A DNA stretch of 64,000 nucleotides from Bacteroidota bacterium (GTDB taxonomy: Bacteria; Bacteroidota; Bacteroidia; Chitinophagales; Chitinophagaceae): assembly GCA_963169635.1 (NCBI GenBank), contig CAUJDL010000087.1:16360-80359 (forward strand). The letters are read 5' to 3'. The position numbers and the translations under genes are program-made. The notes under the pieces are model-generated. The model saw nothing but the letters and a program-made list of their open reading frames with translations. It was not told where the DNA came from and searched no databases. Shown piece after piece: positions 2,922 to 64,000 of the stretch (position 1 is the stretch's first letter; the number at the start of each line of letters is the position of its first letter).

Positions 2922-2988
2922 AAGATTAATTTTTATATTGTTAAGAATATAATTATTGGGATAAATATAAATATTTTATTAAGAAAAA

Positions 2989-3726
2989 CTAAAGTAATAA
3001 TGCAGCTAAAATATAATCTGCTAATAAAATTAAAATACAACTTACCACAACTGCTTTAGTACTTGCTCTACCAATTTCTAATGCACCACCTTTTACATGA
3101 TAACCAAAATATGCAGGAATACTGCTAACAATAAAAGCAAATGTGTAAGCTTTAGTTAATGCAAAAAATACATTATAAGGTGTAAAATTTAATCTTAAAC
3201 CAGTATCAAAAATATCAGTAGCAATTATACCACTCATTGCACCAGCAGTTCTACCACCCCAAATTGCTAATAATGCAGAGAGTATAATAAGACAAGGAAT
3301 AACTACTAATGCTGCTGTAATTTTTGGTAATATTAAATAGCTTCTTGTATTAATACCCATAATTTCTTGAGCATCTATTTGCTCTGTAATTTGCATATTA
3401 CCTAATTCACTGGCAATTTTACTACCTACTACACCAGCTAATACAATACTTACAACAGTGGGAGAAAGTTCTAATATTACACTATCTCTTACAATTTGTG
3501 CAATGGTAGTAAGTGGTACTAAGGGACTTACTAATTGATAAGCTGTTTGTACTGTAGTTACAGCACCTAAAAACAAAGAAATAATTACTACAATAGGTAA
3601 TGCACCAATACCAATTTCTACGCATTGATGCATAAACTCTTTCCAATACATTTTATAATTCTCTGGTTTGGTAAACATACTTTTTAGCATTACAATATAT
3701 CTACCAAAATGTGTAAAGAAATTCAT
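2989..3726 (-). CDS. MlaE/YrbE-type ABC transporter permease (phospholipid transport)
   Basis: Inner-membrane permease of the MlaE (MCE-associated) family, which moves phospholipids between inner and outer membranes together with an MlaF-type ATPase and an MCE (MlaD) protein. At 245 aa it has the normal family length. Conserved blocks are visible: GIGALPIVVIISLFLGAVTTVQ near residues 37-58, and the cytoplasmic loop LAGVVGSKIASELGNMQITEQIDAQEIMGI near 97-127, which is the family signature that contacts the ATPase. Four to five further hydrophobic helices follow. It starts 15 bases after the maeB stop, so the two are likely co-transcribed. Unusually, no ATPase (mlaF) or MCE gene follows; the next gene downstream is the cysteine peptidase. 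The partners must be encoded elsewhere. Confidence 0.92.
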   Translation of the reverse strand: MNFFTHFGRYIVMLKSMFTKPENYKMYWKEFMHQCVEIGIGALPIVVIISLFLGAVTTVQTAYQLVSPLVPLTTIAQIVRDSVILELSPTVVSIVLAGVVGSKIASELGNMQITEQIDAQEIMGINTRSYLILPKITAALVVIPCLIILSALLAIWGGRTAGAMSGIIATDIFDTGLRLNFTPYNVFFALTKAYTFAFIVSSIPAYFGYHVKGGALEIGRASTKAVVVSCILILLADYILAALLL

Positions 3727-49329: not shown

Positions 49330-52300
49330 ATGAAGATTATGAAAGAATTTAACAAACTGAGTATTTTATTATTTGTATTTCTTGCCTTTGGGGGTATTCA
49401 AAAAGTACCAGCACAATTTAGCATTAATAATGCTGAAAACACATTTGTAAAAAATCAATATTCGCCTTCTCAAGGTTATGATTTATTTACAAATTTTGAT
49501 AAATCAGTTGTTACTACTTCTGATGATAATGTTTATACAGGAGGCTCTTGTGTAGCATTAACAAGTGGTGGTACTATTGGTTCTAATCAGCAAAATTGTG
49601 GTTCATTTACTGCTGCTGGTTTTACTAATATCACTTCTGCAAGTGGTGGTACAGGAGGTACAATAAAATATCAATGGCAAAAATTAATAAGTTGTGGTTC
49701 TTTTACTGATATATCTGGTAAAACTGCAGCTACATATTCTGCTGGTGCAGTTACTAAAACTACTATCTATCGTCGTAAAGCATGGAGAGATTGTTCTGGT
49801 GGTACTGGTAATACACCAATTTACTCAAATGAAGTTACAGTATTAATTGTTTATCCTGGTACTATTTCAGGAGATCAAAGTGGTAGTTGTAATTATGTAC
49901 CAACATCAATAACTGGTACAAATGAAAGTACTAATAACAATTATTGTTTAAGCGATGGTACTGCACAAAATCAAAGTTATCAATGGCAACAAAGTATAGA
50001 TGGTGGCATAACTTGGACAAATATTAGTGGTGCAACCTCTCAGAATTATGCACCAGGGGCATTAACACAAACAACAAAATATAGAAGGGCTACTACTGTT
50101 AGTGGCTTTACTTGTTATAGTAATGTAGTAACTAAAACTGTAACAGTAACACCAGTTGTTTTATCAGAAGAAAAATTCCCAAATAGTTTTAATACAGGAT
50201 TTTCTGCACCTATTAATACTACATTTGCAGGCTCTATAGGTACTTGGAGTGCATACTCTACAACAAATAGATCTACTATTGTAGTTAATAATGCATACTA
50301 TCAATCATCACCATATGCAATTAAAATTGTAAATTATAATACTAATGGTTATGCAGCAAGTACAGCAAGAGCTACATCACCTAAAGTAGATTTATCTACA
50401 GCATCAAATGCTAATTTAACTTTTAAATTATATACTTATGCTGTTTCTGCATCAAACACTTGCTATACATTTAAGATAGAATTTTCTAATGATAATGGTA
50501 GTACATGGAGTACAGCTTTATCATTAACATCTCAAGATATTTATAATACTTATGGCCTTAATCAATGGGGTACTGTAAATATACCAATTGCAGCAGCAAA
50601 TTATAATAGTAATTTTAAATATAGAATAAGTGGTACATCAAATGCAGGATGTAATTTTGATACATATATTTATTTAGACAATTTTGTAATTAACTCTTAC
50701 CCTGTATGCGTTAATTGTCCTACTGTAACAGAAGCAGGTGCAGAACAAACAAATTGTAATGATAATACATTTACCATGTCTGCTACTGCTGCACCAAATG
50801 GCTCTACAGGTACATGGAGTGTAATTAGTGGAAGTGCAACAATTGCAAATGTAAATTCAGCAACTTCTTCAGTTACTGTTACAAGTTCTCCTGCTGTTTT
50901 AAGATGGACAGTAACAACACCAAGCTGTTCTGATATTTATGATGAAGTAACATTAATCAATAATATTCCAGGTATTACTACATTATCTGATGAAAAATTC
51001 CCTAATAGTTTTAATACAGGATTTACAGCACCAATAAATACAACATTTACAGGCTCTACAGGATCATGGGGTGCTTATTCTACAACAAACAGATCTACCA
51101 TTGTAGTACATAGTAATTATTATCAATCATCTCCTTATGCTTTAAAGATTGTAAATTATAGTACTAGTGGTTATGCTGCAAGTACAGCAAGAGCTACATC
51201 GCCTAAAGTAAATTTACAAGGTGGACATAATATAGATTTAAGTTTTAGATTATATACATATTCTGTTTCTGCTGCTAATACTTGCTATTCATTTAATGTA
51301 GAATTTTCTAATGATAATGGTGGCAGTTGGACTACAGCCTATTCAAAAACAGCACAACAAATTGCCAATAGTTTTGGTCAAGGTACATGGAGTACAATTA
51401 CAATTCCTGTAGATCCTAGTTTTTATAATACTAATTTTAGATATCGTATAAGTGGTGTACAAGCTAGTGGTTGTGGTTATAATACTTATTTATATGTAGA
51501 TAATATAGTAATCAATACTTATGGTTCTTGTGAGCCTTGCCCTGAATCAACAAATGCTGGGTCTGAGCAAACACATTGTAATGATAATGTATTTACAACT
51601 TCTGCTACACCAGCACCTGATGGTTCTACTGGTACTTGGAGTGTAGTAAGTGGTGCAGCAACTATCAATGATGTAAACGCACCTGCAACATCTGTAACTG
51701 TTACAAGTTCACCTGCTACTTTAAGATGGACAGTAACAACACCAGGTTGTCCTGATGTTTATGATGAAGTTGTATTTACTAATGAAGTTACTGGATCTAC
51801 AACAATCTCTTATGAAACATTCCCTAACTGTTTTAATACAGGTTTCTCTGCACCAATTAATTCATCATTCACAGGTTCTACTGGTACTTGGGGTGCATAT
51901 TCTACAACTGCAAGATCTACAGTTGTAGTGTATGATGCAGTTTATCAATCATCTCCTTATGCATTAAAACTGGTAAATTATAGTACAAGTGGATATGCTG
52001 CAAGTACATCAAGAGCTACATCTCCAAAAATAAATTTAACAGGTGGTAATAGTGTAGATTTAAGTTTTAAATTATATACTTATTCAGTATCTGCATCTAA
52101 TACTTGTTATACATTTAAAGTAGAATTTTCTAATGATAATGGTAGTACATGGAATACTGTACATACTGCAACTGCACAAGAAATTTATAATACTTATGGT
52201 CTTAATCAATGGGGCACAGTAACTATACCAGTACCTGTAAGTTATTATAATGCTAATTTTAAATATAGATTAAGTGGTGTACAAAATGCAGGATGCGATT

Positions 52301-55300
52301 ATAATACTTATATTTATATAGATAATATTGCTATAAAAACTTACACTTCTTGCGAACCTTGTCCTACAGAAACTAATGCAGGTACTAATCAGTCTAATTG
52401 TAACAACAATACATTTACAATGGCTGCAACACCAGCACCTGTTGGTTCTACAGGTACTTGGAGTGTAATGAGTGGTAGTGCTACTATTGCTAATGTAAAT
52501 TCAGCAACAACATCAGTAACAGTTACTAGCTCTCCTGCAATTTTAAAATGGACAATAACAACTCCTGGCTGTCCAGATATTTATGATTCAGTAGAATTAA
52601 TTAATAATATTAACTCACCAGTTAATATTTCTACAGAGTCATTTACAAACAGTTTTAATACAGGTTTCTCAGCTCCAATAAATTCTACATTTACAGGTTC
52701 TGCTGGTACATGGAGTGCTTATTCTAGTACAAGCAGATCTACTATTGTAGTAAATAATGCATATTATCAATCATCTCCTTATGCTTTAAAATTATATCAT
52801 CAAAGTACAAGTGGATATGCTGCAACTACAACTAAAGCTACATCTCCTACTATTAATTTAAGTAGTGGTAATAGTGTAGAGTTAAGTTTAAAGCTTTATA
52901 CACATACAATTTCTTCATCTAATACATGTTTTTCATTTAATATAGAAATTTCTAATGATAATGGATCTACATGGAGTAATGTTTATACAAAAACTTCTCA
53001 ACAATTAGTTAGTGCTTTTGGACATGATACTTGGAATACAATTACAGTTCCTGTACCTGTAAGTTATTATAATGCAAACTTTAAATATCGTATAAGTGGT
53101 GTACAAGCTGCTGGTTGTAATTTTAATACTTATTTGTATATAGATGATATTAATTTAAAATCTTATCCTCCTTGTGTACCTTGTCCTACAGAAACAGAAG
53201 CAGGTGAAAATCAAATAAACTGTAATAATAATACATTTACAATGTCTGCAACACCAGCACCTGTTGGTTCTACAGGAACTTGGAGTGTAGTTAGTGGAGC
53301 AGCAACTATTGCTAATGTAAATTCAGCTACAACTACTGTAACTGTTACAAATTCTCCAGCTATTTTAAAATGGACAATTACTACACCAGGATGCCCAGAT
53401 ATTTATGATTCAGTTACATTAACTAATAATACAAATACACCAACAGTTATTGCTCATGAAACATTCCCTAATTGCTTTAACACAGGTGGTTCTAGTCCTG
53501 TAAATACAACTTTTGTTGGTTCTACAGGTACATGGAAAGCTTACTCTACAACAAGTAGATCAACAATTGTTGTTGATGGTTTTGTCAATCAATCATCTCC
53601 TTATGCTTTAGAATTAGTAAATATTAGCACAAGTGGTTATGCTGCAAGTACATCTACTGCTACTTCTCCTAAATTAAATTTAAGTAGTGGTAATAATGTT
53701 GAGTTAACATTTAAATTATATACATACAATGTATCTGCTTCTAATACATGTTATACATTTAATATAGATATTTCTAATGATAATGGTACAACATGGTCAA
53801 GTGCTTATACACAAACAGCACAACAAATAGCTAATGCATACTTGCCTCAAACTTGGAATACAATTACAATTTCAATTCCTGCAAGTTACTATAATGCTAA
53901 TTTTAAATATCGTTTTACAGGTGTACAAGCTGCTGGTTGTAATTTTAATACTTATTTATATATAGATGATGTTTCTATTAAATCTTATGAGCCATGTGTA
54001 GTTTGTCCTGAAGAAACTAATGCAGGTATTGATATTACCAATTCTAATAACAATAACTTTACAATGAATGCTACTCCAGCACCTATTGGTTCTACTGGTA
54101 CTTGGAGTATTGTTAGTGGTAGTGCAACTATTGCAGATATTCATTCTCCTACAACAACTGTAATCATTGCAAGTTCTCCTGTTACTTTAAAATGGACAAT
54201 AACAACACCTGGTTGTGATGATATTTTTGATTTAGTAGTTTTGGTAAATAATGTAGATTGTGGACCAAATACATTTAGCCCTACTAAAGAAGCTAAAGGT
54301 TTTGATATCTTCTCTAAAGAAGGTGTAACATTAACTGGAGGTCATACAGATGGTGGTGTTGCATTAGGTGGAAACTTAACATTAAGTGGTGCTTCTATTT
54401 TAACAATGAATCACACAGGTTATTATCCTAATGGCTATAATGTAGCTGGTAACTATGGTTTAGTAATTGGTGGAAGAGTTTATTATAATTCAGGAAATCA
54501 AACAAATGTAAACTCTGGTGCAAAACTAAGAATAGGAAATACTACAGGTTCTACTTTATGGGATCAAGATCCTAATAATGCTACTGTTAATTTACGTTTA
54601 ACATCAAATGCTTCTTCAGGATGGACTGGTTATAACAGTACACCTGCAATACTTTTAAATAGTTTACAAACTGCTGCAAGTGCTATTACACCAAGTGGTA
54701 TAAACTTTACTTCAGCTTTTTCAACTTTAGTTGCAAATGCTAATTTAATGAGTACTTATTCTGCATCTTCACCATGTGCAAGTCAGTTAAATATTATTAC
54801 TTTAAGTGGAACTACACCAACGATTACTTTAGTTAATAATAAAGTAAACGTAGTAAATATTGATGGAGATGATTTTGCTGCAATTACTAATATTACTTTT
54901 AATAATGCACCAACAGCTACAAGACCATTAATATTTAATATTAATTATACTGGTTCTGGTACTTACTCACCTTATAATTCTACAGGCTTACAAAATACTG
55001 ATGGTAGATTTATAATTTATAATTTATACAACTGTACAGGCACTGTAACTTTCAATGCATCTAATGTATTAAGAGGTACTATACTAGCACCAAATGCAGA
55101 AATTATTTGGAATGGTAGTAATAATTTAGAAGGACAAATTATCGCTAAAAATGCAACACTTGTTGCTGGAGAAATACATACACAAATTTTTGATGTTTGT
55201 TTACCAAGTTGTAATCCTTCAATTTCTATTAGTGGTAATGTGTATGCATCTATTGTTTCTTGTACACCAAATGTAGTTGGTGGTGTAAGAACTAATGTAA

Positions 55301-57342
55301 ACAATACTTTATATGCTAACTTAGTTGGTACTGATAATAAAGTTGTAAGTAGTGTAGCAGTTGCTTCAAATGGTACATTTACTTTTGCAAGTGTATTTGG
55401 AAATACTACTTATAATATAATACTTACAGAAGGTGTTAGAACTGTTGGTAGCAATTTAACTGCTGCTGATTTACCTGCTCATTATCTAAGTGTAAAAGAA
55501 TTTTTAGGTGCAGGTGCTGGTAATGATGGTACTGCAAATAGTATTTTAAATGTTGTAACAACTAATACAAATGTTACTAATGCTAATTTTGAAATAGGAA
55601 AAGATACTGATGGCGATGGTGTACCTGATTATTTAGATATTGATGATGATAATGATGGTATTACTGATGTAAATGAACATGGTGGTATTGATCCTTTAGC
55701 TGATTGTGATTGCGATGGAATACCTAATTATTTAGATACAACACCAGGCTGTGGTATTGTTTGGGCAGATTGTAATATGGATGGCATTAATGATAATTTT
55801 GATTGGGATAGAGATGGTATAATTAATTCTTTAGATTTAGATAGTGATAATGATGGTATAGTAGATGTTGTAGAAGCAAGACCAAATGGTGTAGCATTCT
55901 TAAACCAAGTAAATGGTACTATTACAGGTACAGATGCTGATGGCAATGGTTTAATGAGTTCTGCAGATAATGGTTCTGGCTTTAATAATCCTAACTTAAA
56001 CGGATTAATACCTCAAGATTTTGACAGAGATGGTACTCCTAACTTCTTAGATTTAGATAGTGATGGAGATGGTATTACTGATTTATCAGAAGCATTTAGT
56101 GTTCATTCTCCTACAGGTGTTGTTGGTGGTTCAGATACTGATGGCGATGGTGTAAGAGGTGAAAGCTTTGGTGATAATTCATTTGATGTTGCTGATAATT
56201 TTGATGGTTTTGGTGCAAAAGGTTTAACACTTGTAGATAGTGATGGAGATGGTAAACCAGATGTATATGATGTAGATAGCGACAATGATGGAATTACTGA
56301 TAATACTGAAGCTCAAGCTACATGTACATTTAAAATGCCTACAGGCAATGATTGTGATGGTGATGGTGTAGATGATGCTTATGATATTGGTGGTTGTACT
56401 TCTTGTACAAGAACAAGTAGTGGCCTTTCTCCTTTTGATAAAGATGGAGATAATACACCAGACTATTTAGATACTGATACTGATAATGATGGAGTTCCAG
56501 ATATTTATGAAGGTCATAATGTAAAAACAAATAACTATTGGCAAGGTGGTACAGATGATGCTGATAAAGATGGTTTAATGGATTACTTTGATGGATTTAA
56601 TATTATTAATGCTACTGCAAACTTCTGGAGAAATGCTATTAATAATAATATGGGTAATGATGGTACTTGGGATACAGGCGTTGGCCCTACAGGTAGTATT
56701 TCTCAATTACCTAAGAGCAGACAAGGAGATTGTAATGTAGGTGATAGAGATTGGAGAGACTTTATGATTTTACCTACAACATTATTAGACTTTACAGGAA
56801 ATGTAAACAATGATAATATTGCTAAATTAACTTGGTCTGTTACTTCAGAAATTAATATGAGCCATTATGAATTAGAAAGAAGCACTACTGGCAACGACTT
56901 TGTACAAATTGCCAAAGTTCAAGCTATCAATCATTCTGCTGTTTCTACAATTAGTGATTATAATGCAGACGATAATTTAGCTAATATTAATGCTAATACA
57001 GTTTATTACAGATTAAAACTTGTAGAAAAAGACAATAGCTTTAAATACAGTAAAGTACTTGCCTTTAAATTAGTGAAGAATGATAAAACAAATATTGCTG
57101 TTCATCCTAACCCTGCAGTTAATTACTTTAATCTTAAAGTAGTTACAGATAAAGATGAAAATGCTCTTGTTCGTGTAGTAGATTTATTAGGCAGAACTTT
57201 AATAACTAAACAAACTAAAGTTTTAACTGGTATTAACACAATATCTTTCAACGATATTAGCTCGTTAAGTGCAGGCACTTATAGTGTACAAGTTATTTTA
57301 AATAACAATGTTTATACAGAAAAATTAATTGTAACAAAATAA
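49330..57342 (+). CDS. Giant T9SS-exported surface protein (2670 aa) with five 274-aa repeats and a choice-of-anchor A domain
   Basis: Signal peptide (FNKLSILLFVFLAFGGIQKVPAQF; Met4 is an alternative start). About 70-275: two Ig-like domains with YQWQ motifs. About 278-1645: five repeats, each a jelly-roll-like half (FNTGFSAPIN...SSPYALKIVN...FSNDNGSTW) and an Ig-like half (CPTETNAG...GSTGTWSVVSG...LKWTITTPGCPDIYD). About 1645-1960: choice-of-anchor A domain, the fold linked to ice-binding and collagen-binding-like adhesins (GGVALGGNLTLSGASI, RGTILAPNAEIIWNGSNNLEGQIIAKN). About 2090-2420: many TSP3-like calcium motifs (DTDGDGVPDYLDIDDDNDGITD). The last 80 residues (VHPNPAVNYFNLKV...LLGRTLITKQ...LSAGTYSVQVILNNNVYTEKLIVTK) are a type A T9SS sorting domain. 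Likely a cell-surface adhesin; ligand unknown. Confidence 0.93.
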   Translation: MKIMKEFNKLSILLFVFLAFGGIQKVPAQFSINNAENTFVKNQYSPSQGYDLFTNFDKSVVTTSDDNVYTGGSCVALTSGGTIGSNQQNCGSFTAAGFTNITSASGGTGGTIKYQWQKLISCGSFTDISGKTAATYSAGAVTKTTIYRRKAWRDCSGGTGNTPIYSNEVTVLIVYPGTISGDQSGSCNYVPTSITGTNESTNNNYCLSDGTAQNQSYQWQQSIDGGITWTNISGATSQNYAPGALTQTTKYRRATTVSGFTCYSNVVTKTVTVTPVVLSEEKFPNSFNTGFSAPINTTFAGSIGTWSAYSTTNRSTIVVNNAYYQSSPYAIKIVNYNTNGYAASTARATSPKVDLSTASNANLTFKLYTYAVSASNTCYTFKIEFSNDNGSTWSTALSLTSQDIYNTYGLNQWGTVNIPIAAANYNSNFKYRISGTSNAGCNFDTYIYLDNFVINSYPVCVNCPTVTEAGAEQTNCNDNTFTMSATAAPNGSTGTWSVISGSATIANVNSATSSVTVTSSPAVLRWTVTTPSCSDIYDEVTLINNIPGITTLSDEKFPNSFNTGFTAPINTTFTGSTGSWGAYSTTNRSTIVVHSNYYQSSPYALKIVNYSTSGYAASTARATSPKVNLQGGHNIDLSFRLYTYSVSAANTCYSFNVEFSNDNGGSWTTAYSKTAQQIANSFGQGTWSTITIPVDPSFYNTNFRYRISGVQASGCGYNTYLYVDNIVINTYGSCEPCPESTNAGSEQTHCNDNVFTTSATPAPDGSTGTWSVVSGAATINDVNAPATSVTVTSSPATLRWTVTTPGCPDVYDEVVFTNEVTGSTTISYETFPNCFNTGFSAPINSSFTGSTGTWGAYSTTARSTVVVYDAVYQSSPYALKLVNYSTSGYAASTSRATSPKINLTGGNSVDLSFKLYTYSVSASNTCYTFKVEFSNDNGSTWNTVHTATAQEIYNTYGLNQWGTVTIPVPVSYYNANFKYRLSGVQNAGCDYNTYIYIDNIAIKTYTSCEPCPTETNAGTNQSNCNNNTFTMAATPAPVGSTGTWSVMSGSATIANVNSATTSVTVTSSPAILKWTITTPGCPDIYDSVELINNINSPVNISTESFTNSFNTGFSAPINSTFTGSAGTWSAYSSTSRSTIVVNNAYYQSSPYALKLYHQSTSGYAATTTKATSPTINLSSGNSVELSLKLYTHTISSSNTCFSFNIEISNDNGSTWSNVYTKTSQQLVSAFGHDTWNTITVPVPVSYYNANFKYRISGVQAAGCNFNTYLYIDDINLKSYPPCVPCPTETEAGENQINCNNNTFTMSATPAPVGSTGTWSVVSGAATIANVNSATTTVTVTNSPAILKWTITTPGCPDIYDSVTLTNNTNTPTVIAHETFPNCFNTGGSSPVNTTFVGSTGTWKAYSTTSRSTIVVDGFVNQSSPYALELVNISTSGYAASTSTATSPKLNLSSGNNVELTFKLYTYNVSASNTCYTFNIDISNDNGTTWSSAYTQTAQQIANAYLPQTWNTITISIPASYYNANFKYRFTGVQAAGCNFNTYLYIDDVSIKSYEPCVVCPEETNAGIDITNSNNNNFTMNATPAPIGSTGTWSIVSGSATIADIHSPTTTVIIASSPVTLKWTITTPGCDDIFDLVVLVNNVDCGPNTFSPTKEAKGFDIFSKEGVTLTGGHTDGGVALGGNLTLSGASILTMNHTGYYPNGYNVAGNYGLVIGGRVYYNSGNQTNVNSGAKLRIGNTTGSTLWDQDPNNATVNLRLTSNASSGWTGYNSTPAILLNSLQTAASAITPSGINFTSAFSTLVANANLMSTYSASSPCASQLNIITLSGTTPTITLVNNKVNVVNIDGDDFAAITNITFNNAPTATRPLIFNINYTGSGTYSPYNSTGLQNTDGRFIIYNLYNCTGTVTFNASNVLRGTILAPNAEIIWNGSNNLEGQIIAKNATLVAGEIHTQIFDVCLPSCNPSISISGNVYASIVSCTPNVVGGVRTNVNNTLYANLVGTDNKVVSSVAVASNGTFTFASVFGNTTYNIILTEGVRTVGSNLTAADLPAHYLSVKEFLGAGAGNDGTANSILNVVTTNTNVTNANFEIGKDTDGDGVPDYLDIDDDNDGITDVNEHGGIDPLADCDCDGIPNYLDTTPGCGIVWADCNMDGINDNFDWDRDGIINSLDLDSDNDGIVDVVEARPNGVAFLNQVNGTITGTDADGNGLMSSADNGSGFNNPNLNGLIPQDFDRDGTPNFLDLDSDGDGITDLSEAFSVHSPTGVVGGSDTDGDGVRGESFGDNSFDVADNFDGFGAKGLTLVDSDGDGKPDVYDVDSDNDGITDNTEAQATCTFKMPTGNDCDGDGVDDAYDIGGCTSCTRTSSGLSPFDKDGDNTPDYLDTDTDNDGVPDIYEGHNVKTNNYWQGGTDDADKDGLMDYFDGFNIINATANFWRNAINNNMGNDGTWDTGVGPTGSISQLPKSRQGDCNVGDRDWRDFMILPTTLLDFTGNVNNDNIAKLTWSVTSEINMSHYELERSTTGNDFVQIAKVQAINHSAVSTISDYNADDNLANINANTVYYRLKLVEKDNSFKYSKVLAFKLVKNDKTNIAVHPNPAVNYFNLKVVTDKDENALVRVVDLLGRTLITKQTKVLTGINTISFNDISSLSAGTYSVQVILNNNVYTEKLIVTK
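50161..54270 (+). repeat. Five tandem 822-bp coding repeats in perfect register
   Basis: Equivalent positions (the ...EKF/ETF/ESF N-terminal motif) fall at 50161, 50983, 51805, 52627 and 53449. All four steps are exactly 822 bp (274 codons), although the repeats differ clearly at the base level. The last unit ends near 54258-54270, where the choice-of-anchor A domain begins. Confidence 0.85.
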
Positions 57343-58743: not shown

Positions 58744-60450
58744 CTATTTAATAATTTTTTGAAAAATTAAACTAAGTAATATAACGAATAATGCACCTAC
58801 AACATTTAACCATAAAAATCCTAAACCTATTATTCCTTGTTTGTCTAAAATAAATAAAGCAATAACACCAATTTCGCCAATAATTGCAGCTAAGAAAACT
58901 GCATTACCTTTTATATGTTTTATATAAAAGCCTACTAAAAAAATGCCTAAAATAACACCATAAAATAAAGAGCCTAAAACATTTACAGCTTCAATTAAAC
59001 TGCCCATACCAACTACAGTTTCTGCAACTATTATACAAAATACACCCCATAAAAAAGTATATAATTTAGAGTAGCGATAATCTTTTATTGCTTGTTTTGT
59101 TTCATCTTCATTACTATGTTTTTGTTTACGAAATCTTTTATGAAAATCTATCATAGTACAGGCTGCCAAAGAGTTTAAAGCTGCAGCAATACTGCCCCAA
59201 GCTGCTAAAAATATAATAGCAATGATTAAACCTATAAGTCCTTTAGGTAAATAATCTATTACAAAACGAAGAAAAATATAATTAGTATCATTATTATCTC
59301 CTGCTATTTGTGCACTCTTAAATAAATTTTTGTATTGTGCTTTTATTTTTTCTCCATTTGCATTGAGTGCATGAATTGTTTCTTTAGTTTTTTCTTTATC
59401 TAGCTGATAATTTTTTAAAGCAATTTCTTTTTGTGTATTTATTTCTTGAAACTGTTGTTGTAATAAAATGGCACTATCTTTTTTATTGCTTTGTAATAAT
59501 TTTTCTTGTTGTACAGGATTAAAAAATATGGGTTGTGGTTTAAACTGATAAAATGCAAATAGTAATACACCAATTAATAAAATAAAAAATTGCATTGGTA
59601 CTTTTACCAATCCATTCATTAATAAACCAATCTTGCTTTCTGTATTATTTTTTGCTGTTAAATATCTACCAACTTGACTTTGATCTGTTCCAAAATAACT
59701 TAGTGCTAAAAAAAATCCTCCAATTACACCACTAATAATATTGTATTTATCTTTCCAATTATAACCTTCATCTGTAAAGCCTGTAGTAATAATATTCATT
59801 TTATTATTGCTACCACTAATTTTTAAAGCATCAATAAATCCAATATTTTCAGGTAATAAATTTACAATCATATATCCTGCAAAAAACATAGCAGCAAAAA
59901 TGATGATGAGTTGTAATTGTTGTGTATAAGCTACAGCTTTAGCACCTCCAGATACTGTATAAATAATTAACAAACCACCCATTACAATATTGGTAAAAAA
60001 AATATCCCATCCCATTAATGAAGATAAAATAATAGAAGGGGCATAAATACTAATACCTGTACTTAAACCTCTTGACAATAAAAAAAGAAATGAAGTAAAT
60101 GCTCTTGTCTTTACATCAAATCTATCTTCTAAATATTGATATGCAGTAAATACTTTTAACTTACTAAATAAAGGAACAAATGTGATGCTTAATACAACCA
60201 TGGCTATGGGTAAGCCAAAATAATATTGCACAAAACGCATACCATCTGTAAATGCTTGTCCTGGTGCAGATAAAAAAGTTACAGCACTTGCTTGTGTGCC
60301 CATGATGCTTAATAATACTAAGTACCATGGCATAGATCTATTACTTAAAAAATATCCTTCTAAATTTTTTGATGTACTACTTTTATATAAACCATAGGCA
60401 ATAATGGAAGTTAAAGTTATCAATAACACTATCCAATCTAATTGACTCAT
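58744..60450 (-). CDS. Sodium:solute symporter family (SSS) transporter
   Basis: Inner-membrane Na+-coupled uptake carrier of 568 aa with about 13 membrane helices. The N-terminus (LDWIVLLITLTSIIAYGLYKS) and the motif LVLLSIMGTQASAVTFLSAPGQAFTDGMRFVQYYFGLPIA match the SSS family. A soluble Gln/Lys-rich, probably coiled-coil insertion of about 80 residues (about 305-385, QQEKLLQSNKKDSAILLQQQFQEIN...) sits in a loop and is seen in a Bacteroidota subgroup. The substrate is unknown; the neighbouring deacetylase suggests an amino sugar, sialic acid or a similar compound. A 40-aa membrane protein lies directly upstream. Confidence 0.94.
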   Translation of the reverse strand: MSQLDWIVLLITLTSIIAYGLYKSSTSKNLEGYFLSNRSMPWYLVLLSIMGTQASAVTFLSAPGQAFTDGMRFVQYYFGLPIAMVVLSITFVPLFSKLKVFTAYQYLEDRFDVKTRAFTSFLFLLSRGLSTGISIYAPSIILSSLMGWDIFFTNIVMGGLLIIYTVSGGAKAVAYTQQLQLIIIFAAMFFAGYMIVNLLPENIGFIDALKISGSNNKMNIITTGFTDEGYNWKDKYNIISGVIGGFFLALSYFGTDQSQVGRYLTAKNNTESKIGLLMNGLVKVPMQFFILLIGVLLFAFYQFKPQPIFFNPVQQEKLLQSNKKDSAILLQQQFQEINTQKEIALKNYQLDKEKTKETIHALNANGEKIKAQYKNLFKSAQIAGDNNDTNYIFLRFVIDYLPKGLIGLIIAIIFLAAWGSIAAALNSLAACTMIDFHKRFRKQKHSNEDETKQAIKDYRYSKLYTFLWGVFCIIVAETVVGMGSLIEAVNVLGSLFYGVILGIFLVGFYIKHIKGNAVFLAAIIGEIGVIALFILDKQGIIGLGFLWLNVVGALFVILLSLIFQKIIK

Positions 60451-60464
60451 AGTTTTATACTTTG

Positions 60465-60587
60465 TTATTTGCTAAAATAAATAGTAGCACAATAAAATAA
60501 AATGATTAATAAAAGTAAAAATGCTAAAACAAATACATACCAATGAAGCCATTTTTTAAAAAGCGGTATATTGTTTTTATCATGCAT
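60465..60587 (-). CDS. 40-aa single-helix membrane protein between PIG-L deacetylase and symporter (below ORF-track cutoff)
   Basis: Found by reading the gap in the minus-strand operon. ATG at 60585-60587, TAA at 60465-60467, 40 residues: a polar start (MHDKNNIPLFKKWLHW) followed by one hydrophobic helix (VFVLAFLLLLIILFYCATIY) and a short SK tail. It begins 3 bases after the PIG-L stop (60591) and stops 14 bases before the symporter start, so the spacing is that of a tightly packed operon. Codon use matches the neighbours. It is a candidate small subunit or assembly partner of the SSS symporter, as small accessory proteins are known for some SSS and related carriers. That role is inferred from context. 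Confidence 0.68.
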   Translation of the reverse strand: MHDKNNIPLFKKWLHWYVFVLAFLLLLIILFYCATIYFSK

Positions 60588-60590
60588 ATT

Positions 60591-63104
60591 TTATTTGTTT
60601 TGTGGCAATGCAAGCATATTTGCTAATAAACGATATGCACCTGTATTACCTGCTGGTAGTTGCCTAAATAATACTAAGCCACAATATACAAAATTTCCTT
60701 TTCCATATTTAGCAATTAGTAAACTACTGTTAGTTTCTTTTTCTCCTGTATCATGCATACCTAAAATACAAGCAAAGTTTTTATCAAACTGTTCTGCTTG
60801 ATAAGTACTTCTTTCTTGCACCCAATTATCAAAATCTTGTTGTGTAATTTTATTAGGATAATTTAAAACTGCATGTTCAGGTAATAAAAAATTTACTGTT
60901 GCATTTTCTTCTGTAACTCTTGAACGTGAGTTGACAGAAAATGAATAAGGACCTGCTTTAATTTGTTTGTTACCAATTTTATTGGCTTTAATATATTGTA
61001 CAATTAAGTTGCCACCATTTTTTATGTACTCATTAAGTACATTATTTTTATCAGTTAAATATTCATGAATGTTATAAGCTCTAATACCTGTTACAATTGC
61101 ATCAAACTGTTTAAGTGTTGTAGTATTCAAATCTTTTTCTGTAAGTAGTGTAACAGTACAATTTAATTGCTCTAATGCTTCTGGCACTTTATCTCCTGCA
61201 CCAACAATAAAACCAACTTTTAATTGTTTTGTTTTAATAGGCGAAGCAATTAATTGTATTTTATCTTCATAAAAATAATGTTGGTTAGGAATATGTTCAT
61301 AAGCAATTTTCTTTAAATTATTTGTATAAGTATTAACTGCTTTATTATCTATAACACTTACAGATGCTTTTAAAATAGCATTGTTATTTGTATTAAATAT
61401 TTTACTTAATGGAATGTGTAATTGATAACTTACACCTTCTGTTAAACTTTGTACTGTATCTTTTGTATAAACAATTTTATTATCTTGATATACATTAATT
61501 TTTATTGCAGCATCTTTTTTATTAATGAAAGATTTGTATTGTACATGTACTAACTTTTCTTTACTTTTTTGTTGTTGATTAATTGCTTTTGTAGTTATAA
61601 TATTGGGCAATAATGATACAATGATTGGTGTAGTAACAATAACAGGCTGATACACTTCGCCTCTTACAGGATGTACATATTTATATTGCAATGGTGTTTG
61701 AAATGTAAAATCTGTTCCCTCAATAGTAAAAATAAATTTAGCAGAAAAGGTTGGTTGATTTTCTGCACTTCCTGCTATATCATCATTTGCTTTTGGAAAT
61801 AAATTATTTTGTATAGGCTGTTGTAGCCAATAAGGTTGTGTAGGTTTTAAGGTAAATGGAATTTCAAACATTTTATTGAAAGTGTAGTTTGCATTTTGTT
61901 TTAAAGCTACATTATATAAAGTATCAAATGTTTGATTATTTATTTGAAACAATACATTTTTAAATTGTATGGCATTGTTTAATCTTTTATTTACAAAGAA
62001 TGTTACTTGTAAATTTTCTCCTTGTACAGCATATTCTGTATTAGTTGTAGCTTCTACAAATAAGCCACTACAAGCCATTATCAAATGTTGTACTTCTTGT
62101 AGTTTTAATGTTACCCAACTATTTTGTTTAGGTAATTGTTGCAAAGTGTTATAAACATTTACCAATGCAGCAACACTTAAAGATGGATTATCAAAATTAA
62201 AATCTGCAATAATTTTATCAATAGTTTGTTGCAAATTAGCTGCACTATTAATTCTAGACCAATTAGTATTTACACCATCCATTAAATCATTTTCAAAAGT
62301 GCTACCATCTACAAAAGAAAAATATTCTGTAATACTACCTTTCCTTTGTGGTCTTCCTTCACCTTGACTTTTGTGCATGCTTCTTGCTTCGCCTCCAATT
62401 TCGCCATAACTTTTTCCTAGCAATGCATTGTAATTACCAATTTCAATTTTTAATTGTGTTTCATCTGTAGTATTGTTAGAGCCAAAGTTGTAAGTATTCC
62501 AAACAATTCTTTTAGCTTGCCAAACACTTACACCATGCAAAAGTTGTTCAGGAAATTTTGTACTATCAGCAGCAGCATTAAATGCAGTCATTGCTAAAAT
62601 TGCAGCAGCAGCATGATGTCCATGCCCTGCTTTATTATTTGGTGGAAATCTATTTATAATAATATCTGGCTGAAATTTTCTAATCATCCAAACTACATCA
62701 GCTAAAACTTTTTCTTCGTTCCAAGTTTGTAAAGTTTCGTTAGATGATTTACTATATCCAAATTCATAAGCTCTTGTAAAATATTGTTCAGAGCCATCTA
62801 TTCTTCTTGCAGCAAGTAATTCTTGTGTACGTATTAAACCTAAATCAATACCTTGTTCATCACCAATTAAGTTTTGTCCTCCATCGCCTCTGGTTAAACT
62901 TAAATAGGCTGTTCTGTACATTTTTTCTTTTGCCAAATAGGGGAGTAGCGAATTGTTTTCATCATCAGGATGAGCACCAACATATAATACACTACCTAAT
63001 ACATTTAATTTTTTTAATTGTAAATAAATTTCTGTACTACTTAATTGTTGTGCATGTGTTGTATAAAATCCTAAAAAAAATAATACTGATAAAAATTTTT
63101 TCAA
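60591..63104 (-). CDS. Secreted PIG-L (LmbE-type) family deacetylase
   Basis: 837 aa. The signal peptide is MKKFLSVLFFLGFYTTHAQQ. The catalytic domain (about 30-330) begins with VLYVGAHPDDENNSLLPYL, the AHPDDE zinc motif (His45, Asp47/48), and has a second metal ligand in FPPNNKAGHGHHAAAAI (near 155-165). The family removes N-acetyl groups from amino sugars or related N-acyl substrates. The remaining 500 residues are beta-rich, and about 640-800 looks like a glutamine-amidotransferase-like fold without catalytic residues (QLKVGFIVGAGDKVPEALEQLN...DAIVTGIRAYNI). It lies in a minus-strand operon, after the M14 peptidase and before the 40-aa protein and symporter. The extracytoplasmic location is inferred from the signal peptide. 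Confidence 0.92.
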   Translation of the reverse strand: MKKFLSVLFFLGFYTTHAQQLSSTEIYLQLKKLNVLGSVLYVGAHPDDENNSLLPYLAKEKMYRTAYLSLTRGDGGQNLIGDEQGIDLGLIRTQELLAARRIDGSEQYFTRAYEFGYSKSSNETLQTWNEEKVLADVVWMIRKFQPDIIINRFPPNNKAGHGHHAAAAILAMTAFNAAADSTKFPEQLLHGVSVWQAKRIVWNTYNFGSNNTTDETQLKIEIGNYNALLGKSYGEIGGEARSMHKSQGEGRPQRKGSITEYFSFVDGSTFENDLMDGVNTNWSRINSAANLQQTIDKIIADFNFDNPSLSVAALVNVYNTLQQLPKQNSWVTLKLQEVQHLIMACSGLFVEATTNTEYAVQGENLQVTFFVNKRLNNAIQFKNVLFQINNQTFDTLYNVALKQNANYTFNKMFEIPFTLKPTQPYWLQQPIQNNLFPKANDDIAGSAENQPTFSAKFIFTIEGTDFTFQTPLQYKYVHPVRGEVYQPVIVTTPIIVSLLPNIITTKAINQQQKSKEKLVHVQYKSFINKKDAAIKINVYQDNKIVYTKDTVQSLTEGVSYQLHIPLSKIFNTNNNAILKASVSVIDNKAVNTYTNNLKKIAYEHIPNQHYFYEDKIQLIASPIKTKQLKVGFIVGAGDKVPEALEQLNCTVTLLTEKDLNTTTLKQFDAIVTGIRAYNIHEYLTDKNNVLNEYIKNGGNLIVQYIKANKIGNKQIKAGPYSFSVNSRSRVTEENATVNFLLPEHAVLNYPNKITQQDFDNWVQERSTYQAEQFDKNFACILGMHDTGEKETNSSLLIAKYGKGNFVYCGLVLFRQLPAGNTGAYRLLANMLALPQNK

Positions 63105-63136: not shown

Positions 63137-64000
63137 TTAATTATCGCTTGTTAAGAAAACTGCATTACAAAATAAAAGTTTTCCATTCTCCCAAAATAGC
63201 CTAAACATTGGGTTTTCAGCAAAAAATATTAATTGTCCTTTGCCAATACTTGTAGCACCTAATACAGTTCCATTTTTTAATTTTTCTTTTACTTTATAAC
63301 CTGTAAATCCTGCTACATAATTTTCTTTTTTTAATACACCTACATTCCATCCTTCTTTCATAAACTCATAAATATTAGCATCTGTTTTTAATGTGTAATA
63401 AATAGAGTCGTAACCAAAAGCTAATGGATGTGTATTATCTAATTCAATTTTATAAATAGCACCAGGTATATAAGAAGGTAAATAATCTTTTTCTCTATCA
63501 GCATATTTTTTTAGTAAACTAATATCTTCTTTATCTGTTTCTTTTTCATTATCTGCTTTATATTTAATACCAATTTCTAATTTAGCTATTTGACTAACTG
63601 CATTTTCTAGAGCAATAACTTTACCACCATTAGCCATAAATTCTTTTAATTTTTCTCCACTATTTTTATCATTTAAAAATTTATAATAACCATCTGGCAT
63701 AATAATTACTTGATAGTTAGAGATATTTGTTCTATCAAAATCATTAGCATTAATAAGTGTTATAGGATAACCTAAAGTTCTATCAAAGAAATGCCAAATT
63801 TCTCCAGCAGCTAAAGAAGATACACCATCACCAGTAAGCAAAACAATTTTAGGTGCAGTAATTTGTTTTACAGATGGGCTACCAAAATCTACACCTTTAT
63901 CCATAAATCCTGTTGCTACTTCATCAATTTCTACATCAATAATTTTAGCTAAATCATTCATTGCAGTATTAATATTTTCTATTGTATTGCCTGATTTTAT
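63137..64000 (-). CDS. M14-family zinc carboxypeptidase, C-terminal part only (5' end outside the window)
   Basis: The frame stays open to base 64000 (IKSGNTIENINTAMNDLAKIID reads straight through), so the ATG in the track at 63961 is internal. The visible 287 residues lack the zinc-binding peptidase core. They contain the C-terminal domain of large secreted Bacteroidota M14 peptidases: DKGVDFGSPSVKQITAPKIVLLTGDGVSSLAAGEIWHFFDRTLGYPITLIN, a class I amidotransferase-like fold with no catalytic Cys seen. Assignment to M14 rests on recognising this characteristic tail, so it is moderately confident. It is the first visible gene of the run leading to PIG-L (32-base gap), and was probably secreted or periplasmic. 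Confidence 0.72.
   Translation of the reverse strand: MKSGNTIENINTAMNDLAKIIDVEIDEVATGFMDKGVDFGSPSVKQITAPKIVLLTGDGVSSLAAGEIWHFFDRTLGYPITLINANDFDRTNISNYQVIIMPDGYYKFLNDKNSGEKLKEFMANGGKVIALENAVSQIAKLEIGIKYKADNEKETDKEDISLLKKYADREKDYLPSYIPGAIYKIELDNTHPLAFGYDSIYYTLKTDANIYEFMKEGWNVGVLKKENYVAGFTGYKVKEKLKNGTVLGATSIGKGQLIFFAENPMFRLFWENGKLLFCNAVFLTSDN

Follow-up and report, generated by a model that had tools for sequence, protein, structure and literature searches.

The interval between a PIG-L deacetylase gene and a sodium/solute symporter gene raises the question of whether the 40-codon open reading frame found there is a gene and, if so, which neighbour its product works with. The analysed DNA, called the window below, is a stretch of 64,000 nucleotides forming part of contig C87, from a genome of 2.23 Mb that is 99% complete. 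Three features on the minus strand are concerned:

58744..60450, minus strand: sodium/solute symporter of 568 amino acids, SiaT-like, with 13 transmembrane (TM) helices, proposed partner (PF00474, E = 9.9e-33; TIGR00813)
60465..60587, minus strand: small single-TM protein, proposed symporter subunit (open reading frame; homologues adjoining the symporter; pN/pS 0.29)
60591..63104, minus strand: upstream neighbour, a deacetylase of the PIG-L family whose start resembles a signal peptide (PF02585, E = 5.3e-16)

The small open reading frame and its conservation

The small frame starts with ATG, runs for 40 codons to a TAA stop and encodes the product MHDKNNIPLFKKWLHWYVFVLAFLLLLIILFYCATIYFSK, in which one hydrophobic segment forms the sole predicted TM helix. 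It is separated by 3 bases from the PIG-L gene (60591-63104) and by 14 bases from the symporter gene (58744-60450), exactly as the preliminary description of this DNA had it, and the coordinates and single helix given there are likewise exact. By itself, a frame of 40 codons means nothing in AT-rich DNA. It is placed beyond chance by its conservation beside the orthologous symporter and by its pattern of substitution. When 101 related genomes were searched with the single sequence, 61 had a match at E ≤ 0.1, and the strong matches lay just upstream of the orthologous symporter. The search beside symporter genes that had been suggested finds homologues directly adjacent to the orthologue, at E-values from 2e-13 to 1e-3, in the family and the order, and the frame proved to be conserved between PIG-L and symporter genes of relatives, the point on which the original idea had been made to depend. 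For the small gene, 169 close pairs give a pooled pN/pS of 0.29, and pN is smaller than pS in every one of them. The small gene is under purifying selection, and 60465-60587 is a real protein-coding gene.

A profile built from 65 homologues (A1) detects the small protein in 133 of 393 genomes sampled across the Bacteroidota and in 239 of 299 genomes of Chitinophagaceae, the family of the nearest named symporter loci (for example Sediminibacterium and Segetibacter). The small gene is normally present as a single copy, while matches to the sodium/solute symporter (SSS) family reach 19 per genome. Searches of Pfam and NCBIfam returned no credible family for the query or any of the 65 homologues, the weak matches being at chance level, and a profile search of the PDB gave nothing credible. 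Literature searches turned up no publication dealing with the PIG-L/symporter pair or with a "symporter small accessory protein". Two matches within long frames (L174 and L200) were judged to be chance helices inside other proteins and were discarded. Judged by sequence, the small one-helix membrane proteins make up a family that occurs across the Bacteroidota, has not been described before and lies outside every known family tested.

Linkage to the symporter gene

The small gene and the symporter gene are found together whichever of the two is taken as the starting point. Of 178 loci with a symporter orthologue, 169 carry the small frame within 900 bases upstream, a count that is partly non-independent, as L161-L199 were picked via the small frame; in the independent named symporter set alone, it is found upstream in 74 of 79. 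It lies no more than 20 nucleotides from the symporter gene in 152 of the 169 loci, with an ATGA overlap of start and stop in 119, and in L068 it is kept at a distance of 399 nucleotides. Starting from the small gene, the symporter is found in 37 of 38 and 79 of 80 loci (116 of 118 in total). One of the two exceptions, L187 (G125, around 2976-3434), has an intact small frame with only an N-terminal symporter remnant directly behind it, and therefore fits the rule. In the other, L363 (G368), the small-frame match has an E-value of 6e-8 and there is no symporter within 2 kb. No recognisable small frame is present within 900 bases upstream in the remaining nine of the 178 loci (L077, L110, L113, L120, L218, L222, L249, L257 and L263). 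Either the small gene can be lost and is not strictly needed by the symporter, or these nine copies may be too diverged or located elsewhere. In L183, residues 1-260 and 262-515 of the symporter orthologue are in separate frames, perhaps because of a frameshift or a sequencing error.

The PIG-L gene, which immediately precedes the small gene in the window as in most loci, is a non-obligate neighbour. In ten genomes it is unlinked, on another contig or far off, and in three it is undetected at E ≤ 1e-20; in all of these the small gene and the symporter gene stay paired. The idea that the symporter takes up what the secreted PIG-L deacetylase produces is a guess.

Several other features were observed in this neighbourhood. 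A second small frame, of about 50-57 codons, is located between the PIG-L gene and the one-helix frame in many relatives (L071, L076, L077, L080, L081, L094-L098 and L108 among them) and is absent from the genome of the window. Its product contains two glycine-rich hydrophobic stretches with the pattern RR..IG..LAI..GLIIG.FIK.V.IGL.IGL.LGL, and has no credible match in Pfam. Upstream of the PIG-L gene, a partial gene (63137-64000) with a weak GH42M-like stretch runs past the window edge to the contig end. On the other side of the symporter gene, 49330-57342 encodes a repetitive protein of 2670 amino acids, the C-terminal tail of which resembles a Bacteroidota secretion/sorting domain.

Structure of the proposed partner symporter

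The 568-residue protein belongs to the SSS family by both curated cut-offs (114 bits against 22.8 for PF00474 and 202.5 against 184 for TIGR00813). Its nearest solved relative is the Na+/sialic acid symporter SiaT (PDB entries 5nv9 and 5nva), likewise of 13 TM helices; the two are about 26% identical in the fold alignment, a level at which the sialic acid substrate is not transferable. According to the accessible text of PMC5931594, which makes no mention of a small subunit there, SiaT has 13 TM helices and a periplasmic N-terminus, while vSGLT has 14. A layout of TM0 to TM12, with no TM13, was read by eye from the helix list of a model of the L226 orthologue. This model (pLDDT 85, pTM 0.82) is of a natural read-through fusion of the small gene and the symporter gene, in which the TAA codon was set as glutamine to obtain one chain, a device and not biology; it was used for confidence and secondary structure, not for docking. 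Between TM7 and TM8, the symporter of the window contains a charged helical insertion of about 70-80 residues (around 59296-59538), which is variable among orthologues.

The small helix and its predicted contacts

Four minus-strand features within the two genes bear on how their products may meet:

60474..60551, minus strand: conserved helix stripe, small-protein codons 13-38 (column conservation over 130 homologues)
60483..60488, minus strand: predicted contact site, small-protein codons 34-35, facing symporter residues 218/220 (covariation and co-change)
59791..59799, minus strand: loop between TM5 and TM6 of the symporter, codons 218-220, which the small helix is predicted to touch with its C-terminal end (covariation and co-change)
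60187..60207, minus strand: symporter codons 82-88 in TM2, second, weaker predicted contact, with small-protein residues 20/21 (covariation and co-change)

The conserved residues W13, Y17, V20, L24, I28, F31, T35 and F38 follow each other at spacings of three to four along the whole helix, forming a stripe. Over the 130 homologues, the periodicity of conservation peaks at 100 degrees, and none of 5000 permutations is as strong. The summed fraction of lysine and arginine is 1.42 in the amino-side flank (positions 11-15) against 0.72 in the carboxy-side flank (positions 36-39), and this excess suggests that the helix is oriented with its amino-terminus inside and its carboxy-terminus outside.

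A first coupling analysis, of 169 pairs, remained near its null; the set was then enlarged to 260 distinct pairs of small protein and symporter (Neff about 200). The strongest couplings of the enlarged set are 34-218 (z = 10.0), 34-220 (z = 7.4) and 20-85 (z = 6.9), where the first number refers to the small protein. Shuffling within clades, forty times for each of two cut-offs, gave maxima of 7.6 and 6.8; by this measure 34-218 alone is clear, and 34-220 and 20-85 are borderline. In a control with PIG-L (139 rows), the top coupling of 6.3 is within the null (maximum 8.2), while the symporter reaches 7.4 and 7.3 on those same rows, where the null goes no higher than 6.6. Co-change, counted by parsimony on the symporter tree for 22,152 residue pairs, ranks 35-220 (13 observed against 2.5 expected), 34-218 (16 against 4.5) and 34-220 (17 against 5.3) as the top three; for 20-85 it is modest (9 against 3.8). 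Two further pairs, 28-242 and 36-206, received no support from this test and were dropped. The case from covariation rests on few residue pairs. In the L226 model, the secondary structure places residues 218-220 in the TM5-TM6 loop, and by analogy with the topology of SiaT (PMC5931594) this loop would be periplasmic. A helix with its carboxy-terminus outside agrees with residues 34 and 35 meeting a periplasmic loop.

A probable accessory subunit and its alternatives

The small protein is probably an accessory one-helix subunit of the adjacent Na+/solute symporter, a reading to which we assign a probability of about three in four. This reading is drawn from three observations: the linkage to the symporter is kept without PIG-L, the helix carries a conserved stripe, and covariation is found with the symporter and not with PIG-L. 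The suggestion in the preliminary description of a missed SSS subunit thereby gains support, from a linkage that is near-exclusive and from the stripe and covariation, while the word subunit itself is inferred. The protein would insert with its amino-terminus inside and its carboxy-terminus outside, and its helix would lie along the symporter with the conserved stripe facing it, touching the periplasmic TM5-TM6 loop and TM2, that is, the bundle side. There it may stabilise the symporter or help it to fold, as proposed for MAP17 and SGLT2, and translational coupling would hold the two proteins in balance. Stabilisation is the most likely role, held with less confidence than the subunit assignment.

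An appreciably less probable reading is that the small protein binds the symporter as a regulator, be it an inhibitor, an activator or a stability factor, and not as a constitutive subunit. Proteins of 30-50 amino acids with a single helix regulate several bacterial transporters, AcrZ, MgtS, MntS and MgtR being such small regulators (PMC10710835), and the lack of the gene beside some symporter orthologues would suit an optional partner. Constant co-synthesis is favoured, however, by the start overlap in 119 of the 169 loci and by retention throughout the phylum. The known regulators are like the small protein in size, in having a single helix and in being directed at a transporter, but they act on other transporter families (an RND pump for AcrZ, PitA/MgtA for MgtS), and none of the four matched it in the libraries searched.

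That the small protein works independently in the membrane and shares no more than a transcript with its neighbours is very improbable. The L363 locus, where it occurs apart from a symporter, would fit such a function, and symporter binding is so far a prediction; against this stand the linkage of 116 of 118 loci to a single symporter clade and the covariation. Still harder to credit is an inert peptide translated only as a leader that couples the symporter to the gene upstream: most loci do have the ATGA overlap or a very short gap, but an inert product is at odds with purifying selection at the amino-acid level, with the helix stripe, with covariation and with the 399-nucleotide separation in L068, where the gene was not lost. 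The equally slight chance that the protein serves the PIG-L deacetylase as a membrane partner or anchor draws on the usual position of that gene, yet the small gene remains with the symporter in the ten genomes where PIG-L is unlinked and in the three where it is undetected, and covariation with PIG-L does not exceed its null. On selection, linkage and covariation, the leader and the PIG-L partner were both rejected.

Comparison with known small partners of transporters

The accessory subunit proposed here resembles MAP17 (PDZK1IP1), the single-TM auxiliary subunit of human SGLT2, whose helix lies against TM13 and keeps to the bundle domain of TM1, TM2, TM6 and TM7; the authors of that study count MAP17 as part of a stabilising scaffold that stays fixed (PMC10803289). 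MAP17 is a one-helix partner of an SSS/SLC5 carrier, as is predicted for the small protein from linkage and covariation, and the covarying symporter sites, TM2 and the loop leading into TM6, likewise belong to the bundle side. Since the bacterial symporter has no TM13, the two docking sites must differ; a further difference is that in the bacteria the genes of the small protein and the symporter are coupled. MAP17 was absent from the 25 listed of the 51 Pfam families weakly matched by the 65 members, and a profile search of the PDB with a limit of E ≤ 10 did not return it either, although SGLT2-MAP17 entries are contained there. The small helix may take the place of TM13 or of MAP17, and the best reading is that the small subunit is analogous to MAP17, not homologous. 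A wider proposal, in which the family gives a 13-TM, SiaT-like symporter an additional in-to-out helix in trans, assuming as a convergent and ancient MAP17-like subunit the scaffold role that falls to TM13 together with MAP17 in SGLT-type carriers, is put forward tentatively and is, taken as a whole, somewhat doubtful.

Small membrane proteins encoded beside other bacterial SSS symporters are also known with two helices and about 80-100 amino acids: DUF4212, with symporters of the VC_2705 type, DUF485/YjcH, with ActP, and YhdT, with PanF. The genomic arrangement is shared, but the protein described here has about 40 amino acids and one helix, and none of the three was among the listed family matches of the 65 members.

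What is known of single-helix partners of SSS/SLC5 carriers comes mainly from human SGLT2-MAP17. The family described here is missing from Pfam and NCBIfam as searched, and if the subunit reading is true, a symporter that is widespread in the Bacteroidota may be treated as one protein in annotation or expression though it is two, so that expression of the symporter only could fail. A genetically coupled bacterial counterpart of SGLT2-MAP17 would then be a simple system for the role of such a helix in folding and alternating access.
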